Under the pieces are notes generated by a model. That model saw only the letters and a list, made by a program, of their open reading frames with translations. It did no database searches and was not told where the DNA came from. From NCBI RefSeq assembly GCF_036867135.1, contig NZ_JBAJIJ010000001.1, positions 1 to 64,000 on the forward strand: a stretch of DNA of 64,000 nt, read 5' to 3'. The position numbers and the translations under genes were made by a program. Every line of letters starts with the position of its first letter. The first letter of the stretch is position 1. Positions 1 through 12,654 of the stretch are shown piece after piece. Origin of the DNA: Aeromicrobium sp. Sec7.5. Lineage in GTDB: Bacteria > Actinomycetota > Actinomycetes > Propionibacteriales > Nocardioidaceae.

Positions 1-26
1 GGGACTGCCCCCGGTTTGGTTGACAC
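1..26 (+). repeat. IS left terminal inverted repeat
   Basis: Begins GGGACTGCCCC and ends GGTTTGGTTGACAC. It pairs with 1275-1300; only positions 12 and 13 differ. Confidence 0.92.
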
Positions 27-68
27 CTGACGTGTGAGGATTCGTTCCTCGCAGGAGAGGATGTCGCC

Positions 69-356
69 ATGCCAGCGCCCTATCCCAAGGAGTTCCGCGA
101 CGATGTCGTGGCTGTGGCCCGTCAGGGCCAGGCTCCGTTGTCGCAGATCGCCAAGGACTTCGGGATCTCTGAAGGGACCCTGTCGAACTGGTTGAAGAAG
201 GCCGACATCGAGGACGGTCACCGGCCCGGGCTGACCGAGGCCGACCGTGCCGAGCTGCGTGAGGCCAAGAAGCGGATCCGGCTGCTCGAGCAGGAAAACG
301 AGGTCCTGCGGCGGGCTGCGGCGTATCTGTCGCAGGCTAATCTGCCGGGAAAATAG
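69..356 (+). CDS. IS3-family transposase OrfA
   Basis: This 95-residue protein is the DNA-binding subunit of the IS3-type transposase. Residues about 22-45 form a helix-turn-helix (PLSQIAKDFGISEGTLSNWL). Residues about 63-88 are a leucine-zipper coiled coil (KKRIRLLEQENEVLRRAA) used for multimerisation. The ATG at 69 follows a GGAGAGG ribosome site. The stop TAG at 354-356 comes directly after the slippery heptamer, so a -1 shift there yields the OrfAB fusion that is the active transposase in this family. Length and domain order are normal for the family. Confidence 0.93.
   Translation: MPAPYPKEFRDDVVAVARQGQAPLSQIAKDFGISEGTLSNWLKKADIEDGHRPGLTEADRAELREAKKRIRLLEQENEVLRRAAAYLSQANLPGK
347..353 (+). 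other. programmed -1 frameshift heptamer G GGA AAA
   Basis: The bases GGGAAAA sit in orfA phase as G GGA AAA, immediately before the TAG stop at 354-356. They match the X XXY YYZ pattern for tandem slippage. A -1 shift joins orfA to the orfB frame, which reads IAFPLVREMAAAG across the junction; that is a typical OrfB N-terminus. Confidence 0.85.
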
Positions 357-376
357 CCTTCCCGCTCGTCCGCGAG

Positions 377-1258
377 ATGGCCGCGGCCGGCGCCCCTGTT
401 CGGGTGCCGGTCGCGGTGGCGAGCAGGGTCCTGGGGCTCTCGACCCAGGGGTACTACAAGTGGCTCAAGGACCCCGTCAGCCAGCGTGACTTCGACGACG
501 CGCACCTCATCGACGTGCTCTACGACCTCCACGAGGACGACGCCACGTTGGGCTACCGGTTCCTGACCGACGAGCTCGCCGATGAGCACGGCATCACTGT
601 CGGTGAGAACCGCGTCCACCGGCTCTGTCAGGTCGCTGGCATCACCGCCTCGCACCACAAGAAGCGGTCCAAGGCCGGCAGCACCGGGCCGCCGCCGCAC
701 GACGACCTTCTGGCCGTGGTCGACGAGCACGGTGTCGTCCGGCACGAGTTCGTCGCCGACGCCCCGAACAAGGTCTGGCTCTGGGACATCTCCGAACACC
801 CCACCCGCGAAGGCAAGCTCTACATCTGCGCAATCAAGGACGTCTTCTCCAACAGGATCGTCGGCTACTCCATCGACACCCGGATGAAGGCATCGTTGGC
901 GCAGTCGGCGATGCGCAACGCGATCGCGCTGCGCGCACCAGAGGCCACGGTGTGTCATTCGGACAGGGGCGGTCAATTCAGGGCCAAACGCACCCAGGCC
1001 CTCTTGGCCAACCATGGGCTGGTCGGCTCGATGGGCCGCTCCTACGGCGCCGGGGACAACGCGAGCATGGAGAGCTTCTTCGCCCTCCTGCAGAAGAACG
1101 TCCTCAACACCCGCCGCTGGGACACCCGCGACGAACTCCGCCTTGCGATGGTCCGCTGGATCGAGACCAAGTACAACCGACGACGCCGACAACGCGCCCT
1201 CGGCAAGCTCACCCCGACCGAGTTTGAGATGATCTACACGACCGCAACCGCGGCCTAA
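377..1258 (+). CDS. IS3-family transposase OrfB (DDE integrase core), expressed by -1 frameshift
   Basis: This is the catalytic domain of the transposase (rve superfamily). Numbered from the ATG at 377, the metal-binding triad is D137 (LWDIS), D196 (HSDRGG) and E232 (SMESFF). The last two are separated by 35 residues, the D(35)E signature of the family. An HTH_21-like region lies N-terminal (YDLHEDDATLGYRFLTDEL). The natural product starts in orfA and enters this frame at about 353. The separate ATG at 377 has no good ribosome site. The frame is intact to its stop 16 bp before the right inverted repeat. Confidence 0.94.
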   Translation: MAAAGAPVRVPVAVASRVLGLSTQGYYKWLKDPVSQRDFDDAHLIDVLYDLHEDDATLGYRFLTDELADEHGITVGENRVHRLCQVAGITASHHKKRSKAGSTGPPPHDDLLAVVDEHGVVRHEFVADAPNKVWLWDISEHPTREGKLYICAIKDVFSNRIVGYSIDTRMKASLAQSAMRNAIALRAPEATVCHSDRGGQFRAKRTQALLANHGLVGSMGRSYGAGDNASMESFFALLQKNVLNTRRWDTRDELRLAMVRWIETKYNRRRRQRALGKLTPTEFEMIYTTATAA

Positions 1259-1274
1259 TCAGCACAAACCCCGA

Positions 1275-1300
1275 GTGTCAACCAAACTCGGGGCAGTCCC
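1275..1300 (-). repeat. IS right terminal inverted repeat
   Basis: Reverse complement of 1-26 with two mismatches. It marks the right end of the insertion; sequence from 1301 on is flank. Confidence 0.92.
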
Positions 1301-1402
1301 GGATGCCTCAAGCCGACCGGGTCTCGATACGGGCTCGGCCGCGGCCGGCCTCCGCCACTCGACCAGCACGAGGAAGCGCTGGTCGAGTCGACCAACGGGT
1401 GG
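1301..1402 (+). repeat. family A palindromic repeat, interrupted by the IS
   Basis: It contains GACCGGGTCTCGATACGGG, CCACTCGACCAGC and an inverted CTGGTCGAGT, the modules of the arrays at 1768-2200 and 4346-5182. The first bases (GGATGCCTCAAGCCGACCGG) match the linker found in other copies (GGGTGCCGCAAGCTGACCGG at 1769-1788), so the IS lies inside the repeat. It forms the upstream flank of the GIY-YIG gene. Confidence 0.8.
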
Positions 1403-1469
1403 GGTGCCGACGAGAGGGCTGTGGACGCACGGTCGCATTCTTCGTCGAACTGGGCGACTGTCTCGTCCC

Positions 1470-1781
1470 ATGGCCGGCTTCATGTACATCCTGCGTTGCG
1501 CGGACGGCAGCTACTACGTGGGCAGCACCCGCGACTACGTGGCTCGACTCAGGCAGCACAACGACGGGGAAGGCGCGGCCTACACGCGGCGGCGACTCCC
1601 CGTCGAGCTCGTGTACTGCCTGCCGTGCGAGTCAATCGTCCAGGCCTACTGGTTCGAGAAGCGTGTCCAAGGATGGTCGCGGGCCAAGCGGGAAGCGCTC
1701 ATCGACGGCCGGCTGGATCTGCTCCCGGAGCTCGCGAGGAAGAAGTTCGACAAGCCAGATCCACCGGGTGCCGCAAGCTGA
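1470..1781 (+). CDS. GIY-YIG nuclease family protein embedded in palindromic repeats
   Basis: A 103-residue single-domain protein of the small GIY-YIG (UPF0213/YhbQ-like) class. The GIY motif is degenerate MYI (residues 5-7). YYVG (15-18) is the YIG motif, R26 is the expected catalytic arginine, and E63 in WFEKR is the metal-binding glutamate. The ATG at 1470 fits the family N-terminus; the frame stays open far upstream, but that part is repeat and IS sequence. The last codons and the TGA at 1779-1781 lie within a family A repeat, and another copy lies just upstream. The substrate is unknown. Fixed association with the repeats could mean it acts on their hairpins (inference). It may have lost its native promoter to the IS. 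Confidence 0.85.
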   Translation: MAGFMYILRCADGSYYVGSTRDYVARLRQHNDGEGAAYTRRRLPVELVYCLPCESIVQAYWFEKRVQGWSRAKREALIDGRLDLLPELARKKFDKPDPPGAAS

Positions 1782-2200
1782 CCGGGTCTCGATACTGGTC
1801 CTCGTTCCTCGGACCAACTCGACCAGCGGGTGGGTGGCCAGCACCTTCGCCGGTCGAGTGCTCGGCGAGCCCTGGCGAGCCGGCGTACCGAGACCCCCGC
1901 ACCCGACAGCACCCGTCAACCACGGCCCGAGCGAACCTGACCGGGTCTCGATACCGGTCCTCGTTCCTCGGACCAACTCGACCAACGAGGTCGGCGGCCA
2001 GCACCTTCGCCGGTCGAGTGCTCGGCGACCAACGGGGTGGGTGGCCAGCACCCCGCCGGTCGAGTGCTCGGCGAGCCCTGGCGAGCCGGCGTATCGAGAC
2101 CCCCGCACCCGACAGCACCCGTAAACCACGGCCCGAGTGAACCTGACCGGGTCTCGATACTGGTCCTCGTTCCTCGGACCAACTCGACCAACGGGTGTGG
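1768..2200 (+). repeat. family A palindromic repeat array (about three units)
   Basis: GACCGGGTCTCGATAC followed by CCTCGTTCCTCGGACCAACTCGACCA occurs at 1781, 1940 and 2143. Each is paired with an inverted module CCGGTCGAGTGCTCGGCGA...TATCGAGACC and a linker CCGCACCCGACAGCACCCGT. The middle unit holds an internal partial duplication. No coding potential is supported. It fills the space between the GIY-YIG gene and the HU terminator. Confidence 0.88.
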
Positions 2201-2221
2201 GGCGGGCGAGCGGACCAGATA

Positions 2222-2266
2222 CGACGACGCCGCCGGATCCTCAGGGAGGATCCGGCGGCGTCGTCG
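2222..2266 (-). terminator. strong hairpin terminator of the HU gene
   Basis: A perfect 20-bp stem (2222-2241 with 2247-2266) and 5-nt loop, 19 bp beyond the HU stop codon. There is no U-tract, which is common in actinobacteria. Confidence 0.82.
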
Positions 2267-2284
2267 ATCGTGCGACTGCAGGTG

Positions 2285-2563
2285 TTACTTGGCGGCAGCC
2301 TTCAGCTTCGAGCCGGCGCTGACCTTCACGCCGTAGCCGGCGGGGATCTCGATGGTCTCGCCCGTGGAGGGGTTGCGACCGGTGCGGGCGGCACGCTCGA
2401 CGCGCTCGACCGAGAGGATGCCCGGGATCGAGACCTTGTCGCCGGCGGCGACGGCCTCGAGGAGGACGTCGGTGAACGACGACAGCACCGAGTCGGCCAC
2501 CGTCTTGGTGGTGCCGGACTTCTCGGCGAGGGCGGCGACGAGGTCACTGCGGGAAATAGCCAC
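2285..2563 (-). CDS. hup: HU-family DNA-binding protein
   Basis: A 92-residue histone-like protein that bends and compacts DNA as a dimer. The sequence covers the whole HU fold. The beta-arm signature GRNPSTGE is at residues 62-69, and the helical N-terminus is ISRSDLVAALAEKSG. The start is GTG at 2563, preceded by AAGGAG six bases upstream; TAGACT at 2598-2603 (minus strand) is a candidate -10. Unlike mycobacterial HupB it lacks the long lysine/alanine tail, ending soon after the core in LKAAAK. Monocistronic, with its own strong terminator. Identification is firm; whether a tailed HU exists elsewhere cannot be seen. Confidence 0.95.
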   Translation of the reverse strand: MAISRSDLVAALAEKSGTTKTVADSVLSSFTDVLLEAVAAGDKVSIPGILSVERVERAARTGRNPSTGETIEIPAGYGVKVSAGSKLKAAAK

Positions 2564-2666
2564 AACTGCTCCTTGAAAAGGTGGATCTGGATCGTCGCCA
2601 GTCTAGGGAGCCGTGCCCGACTGCCCACCACCGGGGCGCGCGTGTTGCCTGAAGTTTCGGCATTTT

Positions 2667-3338
2667 TCAGGTCCAGCGTCCTGGCGTGACCCGGTCGCGG
2701 TGCTCCGCGACGAGCTGGCGGTACTCCGGACGCGGGACCTCGACCACCCCCAAGGAGGCCAGGTGCGGGGTGCTCCACTGCACGTCCACGAGCCCACCCG
2801 CCATGCGCCGGCACAGCTCCACGAGTGCCACCTTCGACGCATCCGTGGCCCGGTGGAACATCGACTCGCCCGCGAAGAGGTCGCCGATCTCGAGGCCGTA
2901 GAGGCCGCCCACGAGCCCGCCGCCGGCGTCCCAGACCTCCACCGAGTGCGCCCAGCCGAGCTCATGCAGCCGCACGTACGCCGCGCGGATCGGCTCGTCG
3001 ATCCAGGCGCCGGGGCGGCTCGGATCGGCGCAGGCGTCGATGACCTCGTCGAACGCGGTGTCGACCGACGTCGTGAACCGGGCGACCGACCGGCGCAGGG
3101 ATCGACTCACGCGCACGTCCTCGGGCCACAGGACGCCGCGCGTCATCGGCGACCACCAGAGCGGTTCACCCCGGTCGTCGCCCATCGGGAAGGCGCCGGC
3201 GCGGTAGGCCGCGATGATCGTGGGTGGCTCGAGGTCGGCCCCGCCGGCGATGCAGTCGACCGGTGGCAGATCGCGGTCGGGCGAGGTGGGCTCGGGGAAC
3301 TCCCACACCGACGGGGGGAGGGGGACGGGGTCGGTCAT
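2667..3338 (-). CDS. aat: leucyl/phenylalanyl-tRNA--protein transferase
   Basis: A 223-residue enzyme that adds Leu or Phe from aminoacyl-tRNA to N-terminal Arg/Lys of proteins, creating N-degrons for ClpS/ClpAP. Family marks visible are the N-terminal AAYRAGAFPMG, WWSPMTRGVL, the central HSVEVWD and GGLYGLEIGDLFAGESMF, and DVQWSTPHLASLG. Length is close to the usual 230. The ATG at 3338 is only 5 bp after the stop of the upstream phosphotransferase gene (3344), so the two are probably one operon read leftwards. Confidence 0.95.
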   Translation of the reverse strand: MTDPVPLPPSVWEFPEPTSPDRDLPPVDCIAGGADLEPPTIIAAYRAGAFPMGDDRGEPLWWSPMTRGVLWPEDVRVSRSLRRSVARFTTSVDTAFDEVIDACADPSRPGAWIDEPIRAAYVRLHELGWAHSVEVWDAGGGLVGGLYGLEIGDLFAGESMFHRATDASKVALVELCRRMAGGLVDVQWSTPHLASLGVVEVPRPEYRQLVAEHRDRVTPGRWT

Positions 3339-3343
3339 GGCCG

Positions 3344-4300
3344 TCAGTCGCGGGCGCTGACCCGGGTCAGGTGGTGCAGGGGCGCCTCGCCCCACTGGCG
3401 CCACTCCTGCGCCGTCGCGCTCGACAACGCCCGCCACCACGTCAGGCACCGGTGCACCGACTGCGTGAGCCACGCGGCGGACAGGTCGCCCGCGAGCTCG
3501 TCCGGGGTCAGGTCCCACGCGCCGGCGTAGGAGGCCAGCACCGGTTCCCACTCGACGGCGGGATCGTCGTCGATCACGCCGCGCGGCACGGCCAGCACCT
3601 CGAGCGCGTGCGCCCACTGCGCGTCGCCGAAGTCGAAGAGCCGCAGGCCCGCGGCCGAGGCGAACACGTTGTCGGTGTGGAGGTCACCGTGCTGCAGCGT
3701 CACCGGCAGGGCCGAGCCGACGAGCCGCACCGACGCCTCCACCACGGCGGGCCGCGCCTCGACGAGCGCCGCCCGCAGGCCCTCGTCGACGTGGCAGGGA
3801 TGGTCGGCGTCGAGCTCGGCGAACAACGTCACGAACCGGTCGTAGAGGTCGACCGTACGCGCGGGGCGGCAGTCGGGCAGACCCGTCGCCAGGATCGCCT
3901 CCTCGTGGAGGGCCAGGCGCTGCTGCAGACCGGCGACGCCGACCATGAGCGTCTGCCAGTCGGCCGTGGTGGCCGGCCGCGTCTCGCGCCACGTCGGGCC
4001 GAGGTCGGCCGCCAGGATCCAGCCGCGCTGCGCGTCGACCACCCGCGGGCGGGTCACGTCGTCGGGCGCCAGCTCGGCGAGCACCGCGTGGAGCCCCGCC
4101 TCGTAGGCCGCACCCGGCGGCAGCGCCTTGAACCAGTAGCGACCGGCATCGGTCTCGATCCGCAGCTGCGTCGACCACGGGCGGATGCGCACCTGCTCGA
4201 CCGCGAGGACCTGGGCCTCGTCGATCTGCTCGGCGACCCACGTCTGCGCGTCACGACGCCACTGGTCCGACGCGACCTCGTCGGAGAACGCGCGGTCCAT
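3344..4300 (-). CDS. phosphotransferase of the aminoglycoside/choline kinase-like superfamily
   Basis: A 318-residue APH-fold protein. The Brenner motif HGDLHTDN gives the catalytic Asp and metal-binding Asn, and LFDFGDA is the DFG-like metal site. The N-terminal lobe contains the YWFKALPPG nucleotide-binding lysine. The substrate is unknown; nothing in the sequence marks it as a drug-resistance enzyme rather than a small-molecule or protein kinase. The ATG at 4300 follows TAGCGT by 6 nt, so the mRNA is likely leaderless. First gene of a two-gene unit with aat. Confidence 0.85.
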   Translation of the reverse strand: MDRAFSDEVASDQWRRDAQTWVAEQIDEAQVLAVEQVRIRPWSTQLRIETDAGRYWFKALPPGAAYEAGLHAVLAELAPDDVTRPRVVDAQRGWILAADLGPTWRETRPATTADWQTLMVGVAGLQQRLALHEEAILATGLPDCRPARTVDLYDRFVTLFAELDADHPCHVDEGLRAALVEARPAVVEASVRLVGSALPVTLQHGDLHTDNVFASAAGLRLFDFGDAQWAHALEVLAVPRGVIDDDPAVEWEPVLASYAGAWDLTPDELAGDLSAAWLTQSVHRCLTWWRALSSATAQEWRQWGEAPLHHLTRVSARD

Positions 4301-4345
4301 GCCCGAACGCTAGCGGTCAGCGGGGCCGGCCGCCCGGTTCCACCG

Positions 4346-5182
4346 CTGGTCGAGTGGCCCGAGAAACGTCGCCCCCACCTGCTGGTCGAGTGGCCCGAGG
4401 AACGTCGCCCCCACCTGCTGGTCGAGTGGCCCGAGGAACGAGGGCCGTATCGAGACCCGGTCACGGTCAGGCAACCGGTGGACCGGACGGTGACTGACGG
4501 GTGCCGTCAGGTGCGGGGGTCTCGATACGGCCGCTCGCAGAGCTCGCGAGCCACTCGACCAACGGAGGGGCGGGCTCGCCGACCACTCGACCAGCGAAGT
4601 CGCCCCCACCTGCTGGTCGAGTGGCCCGAGGAACCAGGGCCGTATCGAGACCCGGTCACAGCGAGGCAACCGGTGGACCGGACGGTGGCTGACGGGTGCC
4701 CTCAGGTGCGGGGGTCTCGATACGGCCGCTCGCAGAGCTCGCAAGCCACTCGACCAACGGAGGGGGCGGGCTCGCCGACCACTCGACCAGCAAAGTCGCC
4801 CCCACCTGCTGGTCGAGTGGCCCGAGGAACCAGGGCCGTATCGAGACCCGGTCACGGTCAGGCAACCGGTGGACCGGACGATGGCTGACGGGTGCCCTCA
4901 GGTGCGGGGGTCTCGATACGGCCGCTCGCAGAGCTCGCAAGCCACTCGACCAACGGAGGGGCGGGCTCGCCGACCACTCGACCAGCAAAGTCGTGCCCAC
5001 CTGCTGGTCGAGTGGCCCGAGGAACGAGGGCCGTATCGAGACCCGGTCACGGTCAGGCAACCGGTGGACCGGACGGTGAGTGACGGGTGCCCTCAGGTGC
5101 GGGGGTCTCGATACGGCCGCTCGCAGAGCTCGCGAGCCACTCGACCAACGGAGGGGCGGGCTCGCCGACCACTCGACCAGCG
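4346..5182. repeat. 195-bp tandem array of family A palindromes (about four copies)
   Basis: GGTGCGGGGGTCTCGATACGG starts at 4510, 4705, 4901 and 5096, a period of 195-196 bp. Each unit has a module CTGGTCGAGTGGCCCGAGG..CGTATCGAGACC, a linker of about 60 bp, and the inverted module GGTCTCGATACGGCC..GCCACTCGACCA with internal GCTCGCAGAGCTCGCGAGC. The first part repeats the left module three times at about 37-bp spacing. Copies are nearly identical, implying recent amplification or gene conversion. Open frames crossing it are repeat translation, not genes. It separates two genes that are transcribed leftwards. Confidence 0.93.
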
Positions 5183-5215
5183 AAAGGGTGAGCTCGAACG
5201 GCGAGTCGCGCGCAC

Positions 5216-5884
5216 CTAGAGGCGGCGGTCCTTGAGCTCCTTGGCGGCGTACTGACCGACCTGCCGGGTCTGGTACGCGTCGGTCCCGCCCGCGACGACA
5301 CCGCCGGCCACCGGGATGCGGCGCGCCATCAGCGTCACCGCGCGGCGACCGACCGTGCGCGCGAACAGCTCACCCGTGAGCTCGCTCGCGATGATCTTGT
5401 CGAGCTCCGGCGCGTGCGACGGGGCGGTGGCCAGCGCCATCGGGGGCGACGGCAGGCTCTTGCGCTTGACGAGCTCGCGGACCTTGTCCTCGCCGAGCAT
5501 CGCGGCGAGGATCGCGTTCCGCACGCGGGGGTCGTCGAGGTCGTAGCCGCGCAGGTGCGCGATGCCGGCCACCAGGTGCGCCTGCAGCAGCGTGACGCCG
5601 GCGATGTTGGCGGGCACGGACACCGCGAGGGTCATGATGCCGCCGAGGTTCGTGGCGAATCCCTGGGCGCCGGCGAGTCCCACGTGGGTGCGCGTCAGGG
5701 TGCGGATGGCCTGCTCGACGTCACCGTGTGCGTCGACCATGTGCGTCGTCGCCGACTCGGCCGCGGAGCGCAGCGGACCGATGCCGTCGATGGCCTTGTC
5801 GAGGGCCTGGCGCACGAAGCTCCAGCCCACCTTCGGCGCCGCCTGCTTGCCTGCGACCCGGGCCACCTTCTTGCCAACTCCCAT
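5216..5884 (-). CDS. EcsC family protein
   Basis: A 222-residue protein with the EcsC-type hydrophobic core. A glycine/alanine-rich segment GLAGAQGFATNLGGIMTLAVSVPANIAG (split here as a description of residues about 69-96) is followed by LLQAHLVAGIAHLRGYDLDD, characteristic of the family. A second hydrophobic stretch near residues 190-205 (MARRIPVAGGVVAGG) suggests membrane association. The molecular function of EcsC proteins is not established. ATG at 5884 follows TAGACT by 6 nt (leaderless type). No clear partner: the neighbours are a repeat array and a divergent dehydrogenase. Confidence 0.82.
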   Translation of the reverse strand: MGVGKKVARVAGKQAAPKVGWSFVRQALDKAIDGIGPLRSAAESATTHMVDAHGDVEQAIRTLTRTHVGLAGAQGFATNLGGIMTLAVSVPANIAGVTLLQAHLVAGIAHLRGYDLDDPRVRNAILAAMLGEDKVRELVKRKSLPSPPMALATAPSHAPELDKIIASELTGELFARTVGRRAVTLMARRIPVAGGVVAGGTDAYQTRQVGQYAAKELKDRRL

Positions 5885-5999
5885 GGCGCGAGTCTAGGAG
5901 CGGGAGGATGCGGCTGCTCGTGAGCGAGATGTGATCTGCACGGCTGGGTCGCGCCTCGAGGCCGTGGTGGGATGGCTCTCCACCCTCCAGGAGTCCGTC

Positions 6000-7100
6000 A
6001 TGAGCCACCCCTCCCCGTCGACCTCGCCGCCCGCCTCGACTCGACTCGACGACCAGCAGATGCGCGCGGTCGTCCTCGACGCGGCGCGTGCGACCCCCGA
6101 GGTGCGCCTGGTGCCTCGCCCCACACCGCCGCCCGGCGGAGTCGTGGTGCGGGTCGAGGCCACCGGCCTGTGCCGCAGCGACTGGCACGCGTGGGCCGGC
6201 CACGACGAGGACATCGTGTTCCCGCACGTGCCGGGGCACGAGCTCGCCGGTGTCGTCACCGAGGTCGGTTCTGGCGTCGAGCGGTGGGCGGTGGGAGACC
6301 GCGTCACCGTCCCGTTCGTGTGCGGGTGCGGCGCGTGCGCCTGGTGCCGCGACGGCCAGGCTCAGGTGTGCCCCGACCAGCAGCAGCCGGGATCCACGCA
6401 CTGGGGGTCGTTCGCCGAGGAGGTTGCGCTGCACGCCGCCGACACGAACCTCGTCGCCCTCCCGGACGAGGTCGGCGCAGCCGCGGCCGCGAGCCTCGGG
6501 TGCCGCTTCGCCACCGCCTACCGGGCGCTCGTCGGCCGGGCACAGGTCACGCGTGACGAGTGGGTCACCGTGATCGGTGCTGGCGGCGTCGGGCTCAGCG
6601 CCGTGATGATCGCGAAGGCCCTGGGCGCGAGGGTGGTCGCGGTCGACCGGAACCAGGAGGCGCTCGACGTGGCGCTCGGGCTCGGGGCGGACCACGTGCT
6701 GCTCACGGACGGGCGGGACGTCCCGACCGCGATCGCCGCGCTCACCGATGGTGGGAGCCACGTCGCCGTGGACGCGGTGGGCAGCGAGCAGACGTGCGCG
6801 GACGCGATCCTGGGACTTCGCCGCCGCGGACGCCACGTCCAGGTCGGCCTGCTGCCACCCGTCGACGGACATCCGCGCGTGCCGATGGCCCGGGTCATCG
6901 GCTGGGAGCTCGACCTCCTCGGCAGCCACGGCATGGCCGCCGCGGACTACCCGGCCATGCTCGCGATGATCGAGGACGGGTCGCTCCAGCCCCAGCGCCT
7001 CGTCGAGCGCACGATCGGCCTCGCCCAGGCCGCGCAGGAGCTGCCTGGCTTCGACCGGGCCACCATCGCGGGGATGACTCTCGTCGACCCGACACTCTGA
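6000..7100 (+). CDS. zinc-dependent alcohol dehydrogenase (MDR superfamily)
   Basis: A 366-residue medium-chain dehydrogenase. CRSDWHAWAGH supplies the catalytic-zinc Cys and a nearby His. PGHELAGVV is the conserved glutamate loop, and CGCGACAWCRDGQAQVC carries the four structural-zinc cysteines. VTVIGAGGVGLSA is the Rossmann GxGxxG loop, followed by VVAVDRN, an acidic residue favouring NAD over NADP. The ATG at 6000 has GGAG about 7 nt upstream and gives the normal length; an upstream ATG at 5931 adds non-homologous residues. The alcohol substrate cannot be read from sequence. A PadR regulator follows downstream in the same direction. Confidence 0.9.
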   Translation: MSHPSPSTSPPASTRLDDQQMRAVVLDAARATPEVRLVPRPTPPPGGVVVRVEATGLCRSDWHAWAGHDEDIVFPHVPGHELAGVVTEVGSGVERWAVGDRVTVPFVCGCGACAWCRDGQAQVCPDQQQPGSTHWGSFAEEVALHAADTNLVALPDEVGAAAAASLGCRFATAYRALVGRAQVTRDEWVTVIGAGGVGLSAVMIAKALGARVVAVDRNQEALDVALGLGADHVLLTDGRDVPTAIAALTDGGSHVAVDAVGSEQTCADAILGLRRRGRHVQVGLLPPVDGHPRVPMARVIGWELDLLGSHGMAAADYPAMLAMIEDGSLQPQRLVERTIGLAQAAQELPGFDRATIAGMTLVDPTL

Positions 7101-7980: not shown

Positions 7981-10059
7981 ATGAGCGAGTACCCGCACCT
8001 CCTGAGCCCCCTCGACCTGGGCCACACCACGCTGCGCAACCGGGTCATCATGGGCTCGATCCACTCCAAGCTCGAGGACCGCGCGAAGGACATCCCCAAG
8101 TGGGCCGCCTACTTCGCCGAGCGGGCCAAGGGCGGCGTGGCGCTCTCGATCACGGGCGGCATCTCGCCGAACCGCACCGGCTGGCTGCTGCCGTTCGGCG
8201 GCACCATGAACTCCACCAAGATCGCCGACCGCCACAAGACCGTGACCGACGCGGTGCACGAGCACGACGGCAAGATCGCGATGCAGGTGCTGCACGCGGG
8301 TCGCTACGGCTACCACCCCTTCGTCAAGGGCGCCTCGAACCGCAAGTCGCCGATCTCGCCCTTCAAGCCACGCGCGATGAGCACCAAGGAGGTCGACCAG
8401 ACCGCCACGGACTTCGCGAAGGCCTCGAAGCTCGCCCGCCGCGCCGGCTACGACGGCGTCGAGATCATGGGCTCCGAGGGCTACCTGGTCAACCAGATGC
8501 TCGCGGCGCGCACCAACACCCGCACCGACGCGTGGGGCGGCAGCGCGGCCAAGCGCATGCGGTTCCCCGTCGAGATCGTCAAGCGCACGCGCGAGCTCGT
8601 GGGCGACGACTTCATCGTGCTGTACCGGATGAGCCTGCTCGACCTCGTCGACAACGCCCAGTCGTGGGAGGAGACGATCGAGCTCGCGCACCTCCTGGAG
8701 GAGGCCGGCGTCAGCATCATCAACACCGGCATCGGCTGGCACGAGGCCCGCATCCCCACGATCGTCACGTCGGTCCCGCGCGCCGCGTTCGCGCCGCTCA
8801 CCGCTCGCCTCAAGGCCGCGGTGTCGGTCCCCGTGGTCGCGTCCAACCGGATCAACACCCCCGAGGTCGCCGAGCAGATCCTGGCCGACGGCCAGGCCGA
8901 CCTGATCTCGATGGCCCGCCCCCTGCTCGCCGACCCCGACTTCGTGAACAAGGCCGCCGAGGGTCGCGCCGACGAGATCATCACCTGCATCGCGTGCAAC
9001 CAGGCGTGCCTCGACCACACGTTCAAGAACCAGCGCGCCACCTGCATGCTCAACCCGCGCGCGGCCTTCGAGACCGAGCTGGTCCTGCTGCCGACCCGCA
9101 CGGTCGAACGCATCGCCGTCGTGGGCGCCGGCCCGGCGGGGCTTGCCGCAGCCGTCGAGCTTGCGGGCCGCGGCCACGAGGTCGAGCTCTTCGAGCAGGC
9201 TGCGGAGATCGGCGGGCAGTTCAAGCTCGCGATGGAGATCCCCGGCAAGGAGGAGTTCACCGAGACGATCCGGTACTACCGCCGCATGCTCGAGGTCCGG
9301 AACGTGAAGGTGCACCTCGGCACGCGCGCCACGGTGGAGGACTTGACCGCAGGCTGGGGTGCCGGGCCTGGGGCGGCGAAGGACAGAGCCTTCCAGCAGG
9401 TCGTCGTGGCCAGCGGTGTCGAGCCGCGGATCCCGACCATCCCGGGCATCGACCACCCGAGCGTCGTCACGTACCAGCAGGTCATCGGCGATCGCGTGCC
9501 CGTGGGCCAGACCGTCGCGGTGCTCGGCGCCGGCGGCATCGGCTTCGACACAGCTGAGTTCCTCCTGCACGAGCCCGACGAGTCCGTCGAGGAGTGGCAG
9601 GAGCGCTGGGGCGTCGTCGACCCGTCGCTCGAGGTCGAGGGCGGCGAGCGGGGCGGACTCGGCACCAAGGTGCTCGCGCCCCCGCGCCGCAAGGTCTACC
9701 TGCTGCAGCGCAAGACCTCTGACCTCGGCAAGGGGCTCGGCAAGACCACGGGCTGGGTGCACCGCCAGACGCTCAAGGACTCCGGGGTCGAGATGATCAA
9801 GGGCGTCTCGTACGACCGCATCGACGACGAGGGTCTGCACCTGACCGTGCGCGAGAACGCCAAGGCCGAGCCGGTCGAGATGCTCGTCAAGGCCGACACG
9901 ATCGTGCTGTGCACCGGCCAGGAGTCGGTGCGCGACCTCGTCGACGGGCTCCAGGCCGCCGGCGTGCCGACGCACGTCATCGGTGGTGCCGACGTCGCCG
10001 CCGAGCTCGACGCCAAGCGCGCGATCAAGCAGGCCACCGAGCTGGCCGCGCTGCTGTAG
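7981..10059 (+). CDS. fadH: NADPH-dependent 2,4-dienoyl-CoA reductase-like flavoenzyme
   Basis: A 692-residue three-domain oxidoreductase. Residues 1-330 are an Old-Yellow-Enzyme TIM barrel that binds FMN (SPLDLGHTTLRNRVIMGSIH, GYDGVEIMGSEGYLVNQML). Cysteines in CIACNQACLDH plus a later Cys (TCMLNP), about residues 337-355, form the 4Fe-4S site. From residue 380 there is an FAD/NAD(P)H domain with VVGAGPAGLAAA and a second loop AVLGAGGIGFDTAE. This order is that of bacterial FadH, which reduces 2,4-dienoyl-CoA during oxidation of unsaturated fatty acids. The ATG at 7981 follows AGGAG. Enoyl-CoA hydratase next door supports a fatty-acid role. Confidence 0.9.
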   Translation: MSEYPHLLSPLDLGHTTLRNRVIMGSIHSKLEDRAKDIPKWAAYFAERAKGGVALSITGGISPNRTGWLLPFGGTMNSTKIADRHKTVTDAVHEHDGKIAMQVLHAGRYGYHPFVKGASNRKSPISPFKPRAMSTKEVDQTATDFAKASKLARRAGYDGVEIMGSEGYLVNQMLAARTNTRTDAWGGSAAKRMRFPVEIVKRTRELVGDDFIVLYRMSLLDLVDNAQSWEETIELAHLLEEAGVSIINTGIGWHEARIPTIVTSVPRAAFAPLTARLKAAVSVPVVASNRINTPEVAEQILADGQADLISMARPLLADPDFVNKAAEGRADEIITCIACNQACLDHTFKNQRATCMLNPRAAFETELVLLPTRTVERIAVVGAGPAGLAAAVELAGRGHEVELFEQAAEIGGQFKLAMEIPGKEEFTETIRYYRRMLEVRNVKVHLGTRATVEDLTAGWGAGPGAAKDRAFQQVVVASGVEPRIPTIPGIDHPSVVTYQQVIGDRVPVGQTVAVLGAGGIGFDTAEFLLHEPDESVEEWQERWGVVDPSLEVEGGERGGLGTKVLAPPRRKVYLLQRKTSDLGKGLGKTTGWVHRQTLKDSGVEMIKGVSYDRIDDEGLHLTVRENAKAEPVEMLVKADTIVLCTGQESVRDLVDGLQAAGVPTHVIGGADVAAELDAKRAIKQATELAALL

Positions 10060-12546: not shown

Positions 12547-12654
12547 CCCCTTGAGGTGCGAGGAACGAGCCTCGAAAGGGGTACCCGAGCCCACGCCGTG
12601 ACCGAGGTTTCGAGGCTCGCGCCGCAGGCGGCACTCACACCTCAACCACCGGGG
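12547..12654. repeat. family B palindromic repeat unit
   Basis: CCCCTTGAGGTGCGAGGAAC...CCTCGAAAGGGG pairs with the inverted half GAGGTTTCGAGGCTCGCGCC..CACACCTCAACCACCGGGG. It lies in the gap between DUF1697 and the sirtuin gene, and a truncated third half follows at 12662. Confidence 0.88.

Follow-up and report, generated by a model that had tools for sequence, protein, structure and literature searches.

Short palindromic repeats tended by a dedicated enzyme are best known from the REP and REPIN sequences and their RAYT (TnpA-REP) transposases. In the part of that literature available to us, the enzyme gene is flanked by its repeats, the repeats occur as inverted pairs, enzyme and repeats co-vary, and copy number is linked to the gene (PMC2817692); REPs are also described, in the portion at hand, as imperfect palindromes with a bulge (PMC8266576), a feature shared by the hairpins reported here. 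Untagged REP-like families and CGTC REPs are short palindromes without a known enzyme, and Di Nocera et al. (2013), in the accessible part of the paper, raise the question of a link between untagged palindromic repeats and particular proteins (PMC3733652). RayT and a GIY-YIG gene appear as separate clade markers in PMC9465073, with no link drawn between them in the passages available, and the words nuclease and transposase do not occur in the text of PMC12306157 as available. Our search of the open PMC literature (titles and abstract openings) found no link between GIY-YIG proteins and hairpin repeats.

Here, we followed up a locus in a window of 64,000 nucleotides from Aeromicrobium sp. Sec7.5 (contig NZ_JBAJIJ010000001.1, positions 1 to 64,000), where a first-pass annotation had described a GIY-YIG nuclease gene lying within a palindromic repeat family, in parallel with RAYTs and REPINs. 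The parallel holds for behavior: a small dedicated enzyme gene is flanked by palindromic repeats (here at 87/96 loci), and inverted pairs and gene-linked copy number are found in both; co-variation of enzyme and repeat may be shared as well. It does not extend to homology, as RAYT is an HUH/tyrosine enzyme and the protein here belongs to PF01541 instead of PF01797. The RAYT-type Y1 transposase domain PF01797 was found in 5 of 14 control genomes and in 0/49 Aeromicrobium genomes; since this defining enzyme domain is missing, the system is not a member of the RAYT/REPtron group. The repeats probably differ as well: in REPtrons, the foot of the repeat bears an unpaired tag, GTAG or CGTC; here, a scan inside the stems gave TCGA|TC as the commonest internal pair. 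Unlike the untagged families, these palindromes have a dedicated enzyme.

The window gene and its GIY-YIG protein

The gene lies at 1470-1781 on the plus strand and belongs to the clade of loci L001, L016 and L017. Its product of 103 aa has PF01541 GIY-YIG as its sole Pfam match (E 2.5e-14; 53.7 bits against a curated cut-off of 22.6). Arg26 and Glu63, already singled out from the sequence, are indeed kept, being invariant in 18/18 aligned homologues, and a deeper alignment of 81 hand-chosen homologues shows Y6, Y16, R26, H30 and E63 invariant in 81/81; we take the Tyr, Arg and Glu residues of GIY-YIG proteins to be catalytic. An AlphaFold model of the protein (81 sequences) reached a mean pLDDT of 89.9. 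The closest solved proteins in both sequence and fold are the single-domain GIY-YIG proteins of UPF0213, whose structure entries, 1zg2 (E 9.1e-13) and 1ywl (E 1e-8), are the nearest solved sequences and are titled hypothetical proteins. The next nearest fold is the nuclease Slx1 (Foldseek E about 1e-3; 26-35% identity across the aligned portion), which acts on branched DNA according to structure entry titles and, unlike the protein here, is eukaryotic, has a partner, Slx4, and a longer chain.

Two further features border this region. An insertion sequence with rve and HTH domains, presumably of the IS3 type, begins at the contig start and occupies 1-1298 beside the first family A repeat; its orfA lies at 69-356, its orfB at 377-1258, and its ends read GGGACTGCCCC.../...GGGGCAGTCCC, with the last position at about 1298. 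Right after the repeat array, a perfect 21-nt inverted repeat with a 3-nt loop (2222-2266) lies downstream of an HU-like gene on the minus strand (2285-2563), of which it is perhaps the terminator.

Family A repeats surround the gene

A family A hairpin (GGTC-TCGATAC...CACTC-GACC; 1320-1364, plus strand) precedes the gene, as the first-pass annotation had noted, and an array follows it directly. The first downstream hairpin (1785-1824, plus) begins 4 nt past the stop codon and is succeeded by a degenerate one, GGTCTCGGTAC, with TCGG replacing TCGA (1852-1895, minus; left border read off the sequence), and by hairpins at 1944-1983 (plus), 2058-2101 (minus, orientation reversed) and 2150-2189 (plus). 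The claim that the last codons and the stop are themselves repeat sequence proved right, because the 35-nt block at 1764-1798 (plus), which runs from the final five codons through the stop (TGA, 1779-1781) into the following hairpin, is a recurrence of block 1299-1333 with 89% identity over 35 nt. Eight more family A hairpins, alternating in orientation, make up a second array at 4420-5146.

With up to one mismatch allowed, the window contains 20 copies of GGTCTCGATAC, where 1.1 would be expected, and 0/100 shuffles had as many as 20. The whole genome holds 34 exact copies (reversed control, 0), of which 31 fall in C1:1-5114, C3:98868-133440 and C4. Five of the 34 are no more than 700 nt from the gene, a stretch for which an even spread predicts 0.017 (a rough Poisson figure, the arrays being tandem). 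A search of Rfam with positions 1-6000 of the window gave no match at the gathering score, and the four rows returned up to E 1 were all below the cut-off.

The same 3.42-Mb genome carries a second GIY-YIG gene, 57% identical to the window gene and embedded in a different family, B (GGTTTCGAGGCTCG...CTCAACC), with 88 exact copies genome-wide and 0 of the reversed control (counted in the source genome only). Near each gene, only its own family is seen: positions 1-4500 of the window contain six family A and no family B motifs, and the 3.3 kb surrounding gene B contain no family A and five family B motifs. Elsewhere in the window, family B repeats occur at 12606, 18169, 18546, 24236, 25093, 58726, 58771 and 60586, none of them near gene A.

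A shared hairpin grammar among relatives

Homologues were found in 24 of 49 Aeromicrobium genomes, at 30 loci plus one broken fragment. A wider genome scan returned at least 592 pattern matches; 583 of the matches listed encode a relative, and the best 80 of these 583 were taken as further loci. At most loci, repeated 11-mers fill much of the 400-nt flanks, and they take up little of the blocks farther away. For a motif-free view, we collected every perfect 5-nt inverted arm from the flanks and counted the letters that the arms enclose. The combination of a 5' TCGA and a 3' TC ranked first of 4096, being present at 73/97 loci near the gene and at 10 in far blocks. This tally still contained L047; in the 96-locus counts below, L044, L047 and L052, whose contigs are identical to those of L016, L018 and L025, were left out.

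From 5' to 3', the hairpin grammar of the main clades reads X-TCGA...CTC-X', where X is the outer arm. With arms of at least 4 nt, such an element lies within 400 nt of the gene at 87/96 main-clade loci (at least one element per locus, one-sided and two-sided flanking pooled), compared with 24/96 for blocks about 1 kb away; dinucleotide shuffles predict 16.6. In total, 365 elements were found near the gene versus 26 in far blocks (Wilcoxon p 1.5e-15, 96 loci). As the far blocks include coding DNA, the dinucleotide shuffles and genome-wide densities serve as other controls. Taking one representative per locus, the letter preceding the 3' TC is C in 84/87, the core TCGA...TC measures 11-12 nt in 36/87 and is longer in the others, and the arms, most commonly GGT, GGC, CCC, GAT or CCT followed by T or C, end in T or C in 82/87. 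Examples are TGGCTTCGAGAGCCTCAGCCA (Chryseobacterium), ACCCTTCGACAAGCTCAGGGT (Sphingomonas) and TCCTTTCGACAAGCTCAAGGA (Aeromicrobium family C). The strict grammar is missing at nine of the 96 loci: L058 and L090 end at a contig border, L069, L083, L084, L122 and L123 carry TCGG- or TCGT-type variants on inspection by eye, and at L100 and L120 no variant element was seen by eye.

The ending of the gene within its repeats is also recurrent. An element overlaps the stop codon at 16/96 loci, and at 49/96 it either overlaps the stop or starts within 30 nt past it; at L104, L116 and L118, the C-terminal residues look repeat-encoded by eye.

The first-pass annotation had expected homologues to be flanked by the same repeat family. 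Flanking was found at the 87 main-clade loci and, in Chryseobacterium, at 26/30 loci with a hairpin within 430 nt of the gene (far blocks, 3/30), but not by one and the same family: the exact repeat sequence varies by clade, which makes the relation a cognate one. Judged by record titles, about ten phyla have elements next to the gene, several of these phyla being represented by a single, often metagenome-derived locus, and in this sample the combination of gene and repeat occurs mainly in Actinobacteria and Bacteroidota. The deeper clade D (11 loci) has clear repeats of its own, other than those of the main clade; a TCGA/TC element lies near 0/11 of its genes, and its repeats fit no settled grammar. 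One record, L114, is titled Stenotrophomonas maltophilia and is syntenic with the Microbacteriaceae loci L094 and L095; the title is doubted because of this synteny with Microbacterium loci, and the record is probably mislabelled or contaminated.

Genomes of Aeromicrobium, Chryseobacterium, Plantibacter, Sphingomonas and others hold tens to hundreds of such hairpins. The richest of 34 genomes counted was G067 (Plantibacter, locus L093), with 386 copies of CTTCGANNNNCTCAG versus three of the reversed control. An apparent strand bias of its repeats (99 plus to 1 minus) was rejected as a listing effect because 20 stretches carry both strands. In G049, G050 and G076, whose genes go with few repeats or with repeats of other types, CTTCGANNNNCTCAG was no commoner than the control.

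Each protein clade has its own repeats

Mapped on the protein tree, arm labels require 48 changes against 75.8 when shuffled, a value as low being reached in 0/200 shuffles (shared species history is included in this figure). Fully supported branches set the CCTT group (5 loci) and clade D (11 loci) each apart from the rest. In six genomes (G000, G011, G023, G041, G044 and G046), genes of two different clades coexist, with distinct repeats beside each, and although G046, G023, G041 and G016 hold 36-114 copies of family A or C, the flanks of their D genes are without TCGA/TC. Paralogous clades in Chryseobacterium differ in the inner letters too (GAGNGCCTC, CTCCGCTC and CAAGCTC). Furthermore, one protein clade occupies three unrelated loci (L001, L016 and L017) with cognate repeats at each. 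That GIY-YIG genes pair with hairpin families of their own is a real phenomenon and a broad one; each nuclease clade pairs with one or a few repeat families, the gene lying inside their cluster.

Copy number follows the cognate gene

The patterns used for counting were derived from gene loci; copies beside the gene are therefore found by construction, and the remaining copies are the real question. Among 49 Aeromicrobium genomes, family A numbers 6-337 copies in the 12 with the cognate gene versus 0-78 in the 37 without (p 2.8e-6), and family C 27-55 copies in five with the gene versus 0-40 in 44 without (p 6.2e-6), 35 of these 44 having zero. Cross-family tests in the same genus (the A gene with C repeats, and vice versa) showed no relation (p 0.81 and 0.89). 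For clade D, an exact pattern could be given for the sub-clade D1 only; it occurs in 4-41 copies in five of six D1-clade genomes, G016 being the one without it, and in 0/43 others (p 3e-6), and all five genomes carry copies away from the gene too. In Chryseobacterium (148 genomes), at least two copies were present in 14/16 genomes with the L096-type gene versus 16/132 without. When carriers were scored on copies away from the gene, the values were 9/16 versus 16/132 (p 1.5e-4), the 9/16 being read from the listing and flank counts with two genomes scored as no. The carriers G093, G207 and G221 have flanking copies only, and G156 and G169 have zero copies of the exact pattern.

Repeat number thus tracks gene presence, as had been suggested from the window, for Aeromicrobium families A, C and D and in Chryseobacterium, and not across A and C, with exceptions. 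Abundant repeats in genomes lacking the gene, which the first-pass annotation had named as evidence against the link, were found in a minority only. Family A reaches 78 copies in G003, which has no gene match, 56 in G031, 44 in G032 (these two genomes being only 83-84% complete), 36 in G016, 13 in G024 and lower numbers in others, and family C reaches 40 in G046, 33 in G010, 23 in G026, 22 in G006, 21 in G008, 7 in G012 and 5 in G035, all without the cognate gene. Such cases are expected if the gene was lost after the repeats were established. In line with this, G010, where no intact C-clade gene was found, carries a broken GIY-YIG fragment with one internal TGA (G010:C1:852786-852965; outside all flank counts) 46 nt after a family C repeat. 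Two of the 16 Chryseobacterium non-carriers with repeats, G094 and G205, have a degraded gene, with stops or breaks in the match.

Possible movement of genes and repeats

Sister species have the gene at one shared locus, and L001, L016 and L017, of one clade, have no common flanking DNA in the stretches compared. The length of the array beside the gene differs among sister species, and the exact motifs around it number six in G040, 10 in G027 and 21 in G007. Between G020 and G023, eight syntenic repeat sites could be aligned, with L165, L166, L171, L172, L191, L195, L199 and L201 excluded because the repeat fell outside the aligned part. Four sites are shared (one arm-diverged), two have a different palindrome, one is diverged and one is clean. 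As clean insertions, L167/L185 and L168/L179 were rejected since the other species carries a different palindrome, and L170/L182 since the stretch has diverged.

At the clean site (L197/L196), the difference is the presence or absence of a 69-nt inverted pair of hairpins with no gene inside: the gap between the ends of two convergent reading frames is 1 nt in G020 (ends at 1000 and 1002) and 70 nt in G023 (ends at 9044 and 9115), a difference made up by the 69 nt of the hairpin pair. This is a gain or loss of the inverted pair as a unit, in a single case. At one of the shared sites, L178 (about 16.4 kb) and L190 (7.5 kb), the sister species have arms CCCT/AGG and CCTT/AAGG, a possible switch of arms in place.

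A DnaA-box-like motif upstream of the gene

About 50 nt before the start codon of the window gene stands CTGTGGA (1419-1425, plus strand), a DnaA-box-like heptamer. TGTGGA, nearly always as CTGTGGA, recurs 46-50 nt before the start (59 in one) at 29/30 Aeromicrobium loci from every clade; the thirtieth, L037, has the motif and a start called upstream of that of its relatives. The motif abuts the inner end of the upstream repeat at several of these loci. Across Actinobacteria, with L114 counted among them, TGTGGA/TCCACA lies 35-66 nt upstream of the start at 49/62 loci; eight shifted windows gave 0-1 of 61 actinobacterial loci, and no other permuted 6-mer exceeded 18/62. A position-fixed motif like CTGTGGA was found at 0/45 non-actinobacterial loci. 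L051, L099 and L101 carry TTATCCACA or TGTGGATAA at the motif, which we take to be DnaA boxes, and the gene may be controlled by DnaA.

Discussion

Our preferred reading, to which we give a probability of roughly 0.7, is that the GIY-YIG nuclease and its hairpin repeats form a system in which the enzyme would cut and spread its own repeats, resembling RAYTs and REPINs with unrelated parts. To our knowledge, no strand-transfer activity is known for the GIY-YIG fold, so spread of the repeats would need host functions. The system would have two parts, a single-domain nuclease and its own short hairpin family. The nuclease would recognize the folded hairpin, with arm letters and inner stem conferring specificity, and the unmatched TC beside the GA/TC pairing could act as a natural bulge for reading or cutting. 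It might nick the hairpin when extruded or in single-stranded form, as at replication forks, after which host repair or replication would copy or insert the repeat or inverted pair, with a preference for gene ends and for sites next to the nuclease gene. A nuclease maintaining its cognate repeats would persist along with them. In Actinobacteria, expression may be tied to replication through the DnaA-box-like site, which lies between the gene and its left repeat.

The nuclease might instead be a domesticated partner that recognizes the hairpins for a host task, such as processing, repair, termination or its own regulation, with the repeats spread by other means and kept where useful. The placement of elements at the ends of genes in several sites examined, the different palindrome found in the other species at two of the eight aligned sites, and the retention of the gene at the same locus by close relatives are consistent with such a role. 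We nevertheless consider it unlikely, as repeats are more numerous where the cognate gene is present and do not follow the gene of another clade, gene-side arrays differ in length between sister species, and a single protein clade is found with cognate repeats at the unrelated loci L001, L016 and L017. GIY-YIG domains also drive homing endonucleases, and the gene could be a selfish unit that cuts repeat-like hairpins, repair then copying the gene and its flanks into them and leaving the dispersed repeats as by-products or prepared targets. The position of the gene between like repeats and the presence of one clade at different loci agree with homing, but Aeromicrobium genomes hold 0-2 gene copies against repeats in the hundreds (337 in G007), and the unit seen to come or go is an inverted pair without any gene, which makes a free-standing homing element quite improbable.

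That the gene is a passenger, landed in hairpin-rich intergenic space tolerant of insertions, would suit the abundance of such repeats in some of these genomes. It is very hard to reconcile with the six genomes in which two genes of different clades each have their own repeats, or with the D-clade loci, 0/11 of which have TCGA/TC elements though several of their genomes hold many. Finally, a RAYT/IS200-type transposase elsewhere in the genome could mobilize the repeats, as is known for REPs in the accessible part of PMC2817692; with PF01797 unmatched in 49/49 Aeromicrobium genomes while the positive controls match (for this genus only), we regard this as extremely improbable.

Returning to the reading in which the nuclease would cut the hairpins and drive their spread, a wider version of it stands, in our estimate, at about even odds. 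The TCGA...CTC hairpins would then be a large and old superfamily made and spread by GIY-YIG nucleases, the enzymes a second, RAYT-independent class of REP enzyme with a specificity code in the arms and inner stem, and expression in Actinobacteria would be tied to replication through the DnaA-box-like site. In the open PMC literature searched, no enzyme had been tied to these hairpins, and the finding bears on the question about untagged repeats left open by Di Nocera et al. (2013), as posed in the available part of that paper (PMC3733652). Because a very small nuclease (about 100 aa) is matched to each family, the origin of the hairpins becomes testable, and many natural enzyme-hairpin pairs are available for reading the specificity code. 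If the preferred reading is true, hairpin repeats tended by an enzyme would have arisen in genomes on at least two occasions, based on unrelated chemistries.
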